From assembly GCF_947500605.1 (NCBI RefSeq), contig NZ_CANMSJ010000001.1, positions 1-64,000 on the forward strand: a DNA stretch of 64,000 nucleotides, written 5' to 3'. A program made the translations under genes and the position numbers. Shown here piece by piece: positions 10,896-12,627 of this stretch. How positions within the stretch are numbered: position 1 is the stretch's first letter; each line of letters opens with the position of its first letter. Under the pieces are notes generated by a model. It worked only from the letters and a program-made list of their open reading frames with translations. It did not search any database and had not been told where the DNA came from. This DNA is from an uncultured Lacinutrix sp. Lineage in GTDB: Bacteria > Bacteroidota > Bacteroidia > Flavobacteriales > Flavobacteriaceae.

Positions 10896-11572
10896 TTATA
10901 GATCTAAATCAAACGTTTTACGCAACAATTCGATATTAGGATTTTTCTCTTTTAGCTTTTCGTATTTCTCATCTGGAGTGTATGCAAACTTCTTTTGCAT
11001 TTCTTCATTAATATCAATATCTAAGCTTATATCGTAGTTTTTAAGTTTTTTCCTAAGATATTGTAGCAAATCGAAAGATTGTCTTTCAACTTCTACTTTA
11101 TTTGTAGAATTAGGAAATGTTAAATGTATCGTGGTTCCTTTTAAAGTTGGCTTATCGATAGATAATATTGCTGCAAGATTCATTTTTCCTTCAGCTTCAA
11201 TTTTTACAATAAAAGCATTCCAAACTTCTGTTAATTCATCTTGAGTAAATGGTTCTTTTGGTAGATTTTCTTCATCAACAACCTTATCTAATTGCTTTGT
11301 TTCATGCTCTTTTTTAGCACGAATACTTTTTAAAGATAAGCCAGAAGTACGTTTTGTTTGGCTATTTAAAACAATTTTTGGTCTATCTGGAGTGGTGGGT
11401 ACAACCGTTTTAGGTTGAGAACTCGCAACTGCTTGTACCTTATTTTCTATTACTTCTTTAGGATGGTTTATTGTTGTTTCTGTAGGTTTTTTTACAGGAA
11501 TAGGATTAATACCAATGCGTTTAAAATAAGAAGGCGGAATTATGAACCGACTACTATTTTTTTTTTTCTCCA
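10896..11572 (-). CDS. dnaX: DnaX tau-type C-terminal region in a different frame from the gamma ORF
   Basis: The ORF continues the gene past the homopolymer (MEKKKNSSRFIIPPSYFKRIG... to LLRKTFDLDL). Gamma and this ORF meet exactly at 11557-11567. ORF track start is 11591; the junction Met is at about 11572. Confidence 0.75.
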
Positions 11573-12627
11573 TCGAAAGTGATAGAGGCAAGTTGCATGA
11601 TACAAAGTTCGACGAGCAGTCGTTGGTTTTTACTGGATTTATATTTTAAATCGGTTTCGTTAGCCAATGCAATACCTTTAAGTATAAAGGACTGCGAAGC
11701 TTTTTTAGATTGCTCTAAATACTTCTCTTTAGTTTTATCTCCAACTTCAAGTAACTCTATAGTTACAGGATTTTGGCAAACTAATAAATCTCTAAAGTGT
11801 GAGGCTAAACCAGCAATATAATGGTGTCCATCGAAGCCTTTAGACAAGGTTTCGTTAAACTGAAGTAATAATTCTGGAATTTTATTTTCTAATATTAAAT
11901 CTGTACTCGTAAAATAAGTTTCGTAATCAAGTACGTTTAGGTTTTCTGTAACGGCTTGTCTTGTTAAGTCTTTACCAGAGAAACTAACTACACGATCGAA
12001 GATAGATAATGCATCTCGCATGGCTCCATCTGCTTTTTGAGCAATAATATGAAGTGCATCATCTTCTGCAGTAATACCTTGTTCTTTTGCAATGTATTTT
12101 AGATAGTTTTTAGCATCTTTAACTGTAATACGTTTGAAATCGAAAATCTGGCAACGTGATAATATCGTTGGTATAATTTTATGTTTTTCAGTAGTTGCTA
12201 ATATAAAAATACAGTGCTTTGGTGGTTCTTCTAAAGTCTTTAAAAAAGCATTGAATGCTGCTTGAGAGAGCATGTGTACTTCATCAATAATATAAACTTT
12301 ATATTTTCCAACTTGTGGCGGAATACGTACTTGGTCTGTTAAACTTCTAATATCATCAACCGAGTTGTTTGATGCTGCATCCAATTCAAAAATATTGAAA
12401 GCATAATCTTCGTCTCCAGTTTCTGTACCGTCACTATTTATCATTTTAGCAAGAATACGTGCGCAGCTGGTTTTACCAACACCACGAGGACCTGTAAATA
12501 ATAAAGCTTGTGCTAAATGATTATTCTCAATAGCATTTAGTAAAGTATTTGTAATAGCAGATTGCCCAACAACGTCTTTAAACGTTTGTGGTCTGTACTT
12601 TCTTGCTGATACTACAAAGTGTTCCAA
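11554..12627 (-). CDS. dnaX: DNA polymerase III subunit gamma (N-terminal ATPase part of dnaX)
   Basis: SARKYRPQTFKDVVGQSAI, GPRGVGKTSCARILAK, IIDEVHMLSQAAFNAFLKTLEEPP; ends ...FDGEKKK* directly after an 11-A run. Confidence 0.95.
   Translation of the reverse strand: MEHFVVSARKYRPQTFKDVVGQSAITNTLLNAIENNHLAQALLFTGPRGVGKTSCARILAKMINSDGTETGDEDYAFNIFELDAASNNSVDDIRSLTDQVRIPPQVGKYKVYIIDEVHMLSQAAFNAFLKTLEEPPKHCIFILATTEKHKIIPTILSRCQIFDFKRITVKDAKNYLKYIAKEQGITAEDDALHIIAQKADGAMRDALSIFDRVVSFSGKDLTRQAVTENLNVLDYETYFTSTDLILENKIPELLLQFNETLSKGFDGHHYIAGLASHFRDLLVCQNPVTIELLEVGDKTKEKYLEQSKKASQSFILKGIALANETDLKYKSSKNQRLLVELCIMQLASITFDGEKKK
11557..11567 (-). promoter_or_regulatory. A11 slippery homopolymer at the dnaX ORF junction
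   Basis: Sense strand GATGGAG-A11-TAGTAGTCGG; 0-frame stops at the TAG after the run, and loss of one A (or gain of two) fuses the two ORFs. Confidence 0.7.

Follow-up and report, generated by a model that had tools for sequence, protein, structure and literature searches.

A conserved poly-A junction in Bacteroidota dnaX points to Thermus-like transcriptional slippage between gamma and tau

In the window, meaning the whole 64,000-nucleotide stretch analysed here, dnaX is split between two reading frames at a run of eleven A's, the only run of ten or more A's in the window. Is this gene damaged, misread by the assembly, or programmed to give both the gamma and tau clamp-loader subunits? The original prediction favoured programming, with a short gamma-type product ending at the tract in the 0 frame and a full tau obtained by loss of one A or gain of two. 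The coordinates and ORFs are as predicted, and the second ORF, which ends at 10896 and holds the tau C-terminus, indeed occupies the +1/-2 frame relative to gamma. The elements of the locus are as follows.

10896..12627, minus strand: whole dnaX gene for the gamma/tau clamp-loader subunit, divided between two reading frames, from ORFs and domain and model matches.
11554..12627, minus strand: gamma-frame ORF of 357 amino acids in the ORF list, with its TAG stop at 11554-11556.
11557..11567, minus strand: A11 slippery tract (T11 on the plus strand), A10 in most relatives.
11568..11587, minus strand: putative 7-bp hairpin touching the tract, from folding, covariation and null models.
11540..11542, minus strand: third-frame TAA, created from the invariant tau-frame ATA codon at 11541-11543.
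10896..11558, minus strand: C-terminal coding sequence specific to tau, decoded once one A is lost or two are added (ORF 10896-11591; under purifying selection).

The gamma ORF ends GAT GGA GAA AAA AAA AAA TAG, with the stop straight after the A11. It matches the clamp-loader ATPase domains (DNA_pol3_delta2, DNAX_ATPase_lid and TIGR02397), and its product is 98% identical to the gamma of Lacinutrix mariniflava. The two ORFs correspond to residues 1-369 and 422-613 of the 614-residue NCBIfam dnaX model NF011531/PRK14971. Because they fit consecutive parts of this model, dnaX is one gene in two frames. A -1 shift at the tract had been expected to add about six residues before a TAA; the TAA is there, after five residues (IVVGS). 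The tau-specific part gives omega values of 0.09-0.17 between the window gene and its relatives, and pairs with tau in frame give 0.14-0.21. In split species, purifying selection continues to act on the tau part, to about the same degree as where the gene is unsplit (omega about 0.1-0.2). A pseudogene is ruled out by omega values far below 1 on both sides.

The tract is conserved among relatives. In every junction read from the genus, it lies at the identical nucleotide between near-identical flanks (CTTGCCTCTATCACTTTYGATGGAG-An-TAG). Seven genomes combine A10 with a continuous tau, two have A9, two have GAT-A10, and the window has A11. Continuous dnaX genes lacking a slippery run in close relatives had been named as evidence against programming; dnaX is continuous in 7 of the 12 sister genomes searched, but these carry A10 at the same nucleotide. 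Junctions were then gathered from the family, class and phylum, and 297 distinct Bacteroidota junctions were kept and measured. A run of A9-A13 stands at the gamma/tau boundary in 276 of the 297 and is exactly A10 in 227, proportions that are not independent trials since the genes share descent. Some loci from other classes of Bacteroidota also have A9 or A10 at the junction. The tract exceeds what chance would give: elsewhere in the dnaX coding sequence, only six runs of A9 or longer occur in 411,568 nt of sampled genes. One quarter of the lysine codons in these genes are AAG, and the tract is kept even in 16 genes that prefer AAG for lysine and at 61% GC.

The tract is absent from 21 of the 297 junctions. 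With about 7% of the sampled junctions lacking it, the tract is not required in all cases. The tract-less genes belong to a minority of Bacteroidia families (L160, L274, L276, L286, L291, L293, L299, L300, L309, L322 and others). In L160, gamma terminates GAA AAG TAA and the shifted downstream part is retained. Such genes would show whether gamma has been abandoned or is produced in another way.

Other A/T runs of ten or more examined in the window genome (G000) are mostly intergenic or near ORF ends. One A10 (L355, contig 2, 103789-103798) is in frame within a 532-residue ORF for a CHAT-domain-like protein. Another (L366, contig 5, 94851-94860, minus strand) lies where two ORFs of about 130 residues overlap in different frames, possibly a second slippage or frameshifted gene.

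The frame in which tau is encoded varies far more than the tract. Among 275 classifiable genes with A9 or longer, tau is in frame in 200, needs one additional A in 64, and in the remaining 11, the window gene among them, needs the loss of one A or the gain of two. An A10 tract that keeps tau in frame is the usual state, and the A11 of the window is one of three genomic phases, a refinement of the original prediction. The tract is exactly A10 in 52 of the 75 split genes, whose frame is displaced by bases outside it; conservation thus applies to the length of the tract and does not extend to the genomic frame. On a single-gene FastTree phylogeny of 171 gamma sequences, at least 27 changes between the in-frame and split states are needed; shuffling the labels gives a mean of 34. 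The tau frame thus turns over fast while the length of the tract is held.

The A11 of the window could itself be an assembly error or a recent indel, in which case the genome would truly be A10 and its dnaX continuous. Homopolymers are error-prone, the window genome is a 40-contig draft, and the sister genome G001, whose protein is 97% identical, has A10 and a continuous dnaX. Some of the non-A10 lengths, including this one, could be errors of this kind. We nevertheless consider it unlikely for the window, although it is the most plausible of the alternatives, and take A11 to be probably the true genomic length. One and the same split state is found in G005, a closed genome, and in G007, a draft. 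Off-frame states recur across many separately sequenced genomes, 52 of them with A10 itself, so split dnaX is real, and pure assembly error does not explain it. Even if the window tract were wrong, only the phase of this species would change and not the cassette. In Winogradskyella immobilis (L093), a contig breaks off inside the dnaX tract (A13), which may reflect reads that gave it different lengths.

Both frames other than that of tau are closed by stops close to the tract. In the window, these are the TAG at 11554-11556 and the TAA at 11540-11542. A stop in the tau+1A frame occurs at the tract or within three codons past it in 255 of 275 genes, and the fraction with this stop no more than three codons from the tract is 0.89, compared with 0.32 at positions elsewhere in these tau ORFs. 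It is built from different sequences in different lineages (AATAGC, AATTCTAA, AAGTCTGA and AATGAC). For the tau-1A frame, a stop lies no more than five codons from the tract in a fraction of 0.895, compared with 0.37 under the same null. This stop arises from the codon pair ATA-ATT/GTT. The first isoleucine of the pair is encoded by ATA without exception (134 of 134 Flavobacteriaceae-like genes), whereas ATA accounts for 31% of isoleucine codons elsewhere in tau. Slippage in both directions needs the two frames to be sealed, which goes beyond the needs of a -1 ribosomal shift.

The tract is also adjoined by a candidate RNA structure. In the window, the hairpin CUCUAUC-ACUUUC-GAUGGAG lies immediately 5' of the tract, with a folding energy of -7.5 kcal/mol and a z-score of -3.8. 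When 75 distinct Flavobacteriaceae sequences are compared, compensatory changes appear in four of eight pairs, and no slid register equals the true one in pairing and covariation score. Among Flavobacteriaceae sequences that depart from the canonical form, 53% have a strong hairpin touching the tract, versus 4.5% under a positional null and 13% under a synonymous-shuffle null; the latter rules out a by-product of coding. Alternative stems touching the tract are GGCAUCAA/UUGAUGCC in L124 and GGCCUC/GAGGCC in L178. In Muricauda sp. CP2A (L135), an insertion supplies a new strong hairpin, CCUGCC/GGCAGG, right against the A10 tract, as if replacing the old one. The 5'-adjacent hairpin is thus conserved as a structure in Flavobacteriaceae, a feature of stem-loop-dependent slippage. 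Outside this family the excess is weak (25-33%, versus 5% for positional and 9-14% for synonymous nulls), and the hairpin is rejected as a class-wide feature. In 168 downstream regions, the 57 nt that follow the tract are no more structured than expected (mean z 0.01). Beyond what was originally predicted, then, the tract is accompanied by an upstream hairpin and by stops in both other frames.

The second product could instead come from -1 ribosomal frameshifting on A_AAA_AAA. The E. coli dnaX gene uses such a shift at A_AAA_AAG, with a 5' Shine-Dalgarno sequence and a 3' stem-loop, and needs no seal in the third frame. The layout of E. coli dnaX is matched by A10 genes in which tau is in frame and a stop closes the -1 frame, a -1 shift would also serve the 64 genes in which tau needs one additional A, and the GGAG that precedes the tract in most Flavobacteriaceae would serve as an internal Shine-Dalgarno stimulator. 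However, the hairpin is also kept in forms without GGAG, and the downstream 3' stem-loop is missing. The second product is reachable by a -1 shift in 264 of 275 genes, and tau is out of reach in the window gene and ten others. From A11, tau is impossible by a -1 ribosomal shift and possible by RNA polymerase slippage, a further refinement of the original prediction. The invariant ATA that closes the third frame would be superfluous. Moreover, an upstream hairpin beside the site attenuates -1 shifting on 70S ribosomes (PMC6321510). Frameshifting is rejected as the general mechanism on the 11 unreachable genes, the third-frame seal and the lack of 3' structure, and we regard it as improbable overall.

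Two further explanations have very little chance of being correct. Replication slippage at the tract could toggle the long form between cells as DNA-level phase variation, as the differences in frame between close species might suggest; however, the tract stays at ten while indels outside it move the frame, an on/off switch has no need of conserved stops in two frames, and clamp-loader tau is generally essential. Equally implausibly, ribosomes finishing gamma could restart and make the tau C-terminus as a separate protein from the tau-frame ATG found just upstream in the window genome (11571-11573), but in the usual A10 genomes this ATG does not share the frame of tau, it is not conserved, and most relatives encode one continuous tau.

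We therefore consider the gamma/tau junction of dnaX to be, with a probability of about 0.83, a conserved transcriptional-slippage cassette like that of Thermus. Comparison of sequences shows the features on which the proposal draws, from the tract and its stops to the hairpin, the shifts of frame and the selection acting on tau, and the comparative, frame and stop data lend strong support to the slippage first predicted to give gamma and tau. RNA polymerase would slip on the tract of about ten A's and produce mRNAs with varied numbers of A. Those in the tau frame would yield full-length tau, and those in either other frame would meet a stop within a few codons and yield gamma. A10 genomes would template tau; the window A11 would template gamma, with tau coming from A10 or A13 transcripts. 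In Flavobacteriaceae, the hairpin would form in the nascent RNA right against the tract and probably increase or tune slippage. We infer both the agent, RNA polymerase and not the ribosome, and the frequency of slippage, and likewise the stimulation by the hairpin and the gamma:tau product ratio. The frame in the DNA would hardly matter because slippage would fill all three frames. We lean slightly towards the further view that Bacteroidota dnaX is frame-indifferent, with selection on the cassette (hairpin, A10 and two-frame stops) while the tau frame drifts among three states, each restored by RNA polymerase.

The closest known system is dnaX of T. thermophilus, where RNA polymerase slips on an A9 tract and stops close both other frames (Larsen et al. 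2000, as described in PMC1088944 and PMC5009743). The Bacteroidota genes resemble it in the poly-A at the gamma/tau boundary, the stops in both non-tau frames and the predicted two products per gene. According to those accounts, tau is always templated in Thermus (A9), whereas in Bacteroidota the templated product varies by species, with A10 usual; the hairpin adjoining the tract in Flavobacteriaceae is a further difference. Slippage in a Roseiflexus IS630 element is stimulated by a nascent stem-loop 5'-adjacent to the site (ref. 99 in PMC5009743), as the hairpin is placed here. That element, as summarized there, has a T5C5 site in a transposase gene and loses exactly one C, unlike the A homopolymer of a replication gene described here. 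The anatomy of dnaX here combines the poly-A tract and stops of Thermus with a stem-loop placed as in the Roseiflexus element. E. coli dnaX is the same gene with the same product pair, but its A_AAA_AAG site differs from the tract here, in which all lysines are AAA and no 3' structure is seen.

Split dnaX genes have been noticed before. The GeneTack survey of 2013 lists 17 two-ORF dnaX genes spread over 12 genera and proposes slippage (PMC3711429); nine of the genes have A10, and in Chlorobium and Chloroherpeton the run is A7-A9. As in the present set, gamma and tau occupy separate frames over a run of about ten A's. The pattern described, -1 at the DNA level, is matched exactly by the 64 relatives in which tau needs one additional A; the window is in the other phase. 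The set was drawn from split genes and would miss the in-frame A10 majority, and its main text describes no hairpin, double-stop sealing or frame turnover. Among the freely accessible papers searched, this was the only one found on Bacteroidetes dnaX slippage, and none was found on a phylum-wide tract including the in-frame majority, frame turnover, double-stop sealing or a hairpin. As far as searched, the phylum-wide reach, frame indifference, double-stop sealing and hairpin are new.

If correct, this reading would move dnaX slippage from a Thermus curiosity to what was probably the ancestral state of an entire phylum, and it would account for many dnaX annotations labelled as frameshifted. 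It would also show long-term conservation of gamma, the need for which is debated outside a few model bacteria. The many natural variants, which differ in frame, in the length of the tract and in the hairpin, offer material for testing how nascent-RNA structure controls RNA polymerase slippage. Bacteroidota dnaX would then be a rare core replication gene whose templated frame is close to selectively neutral, and an example of a core gene evolving free of its reading frame.
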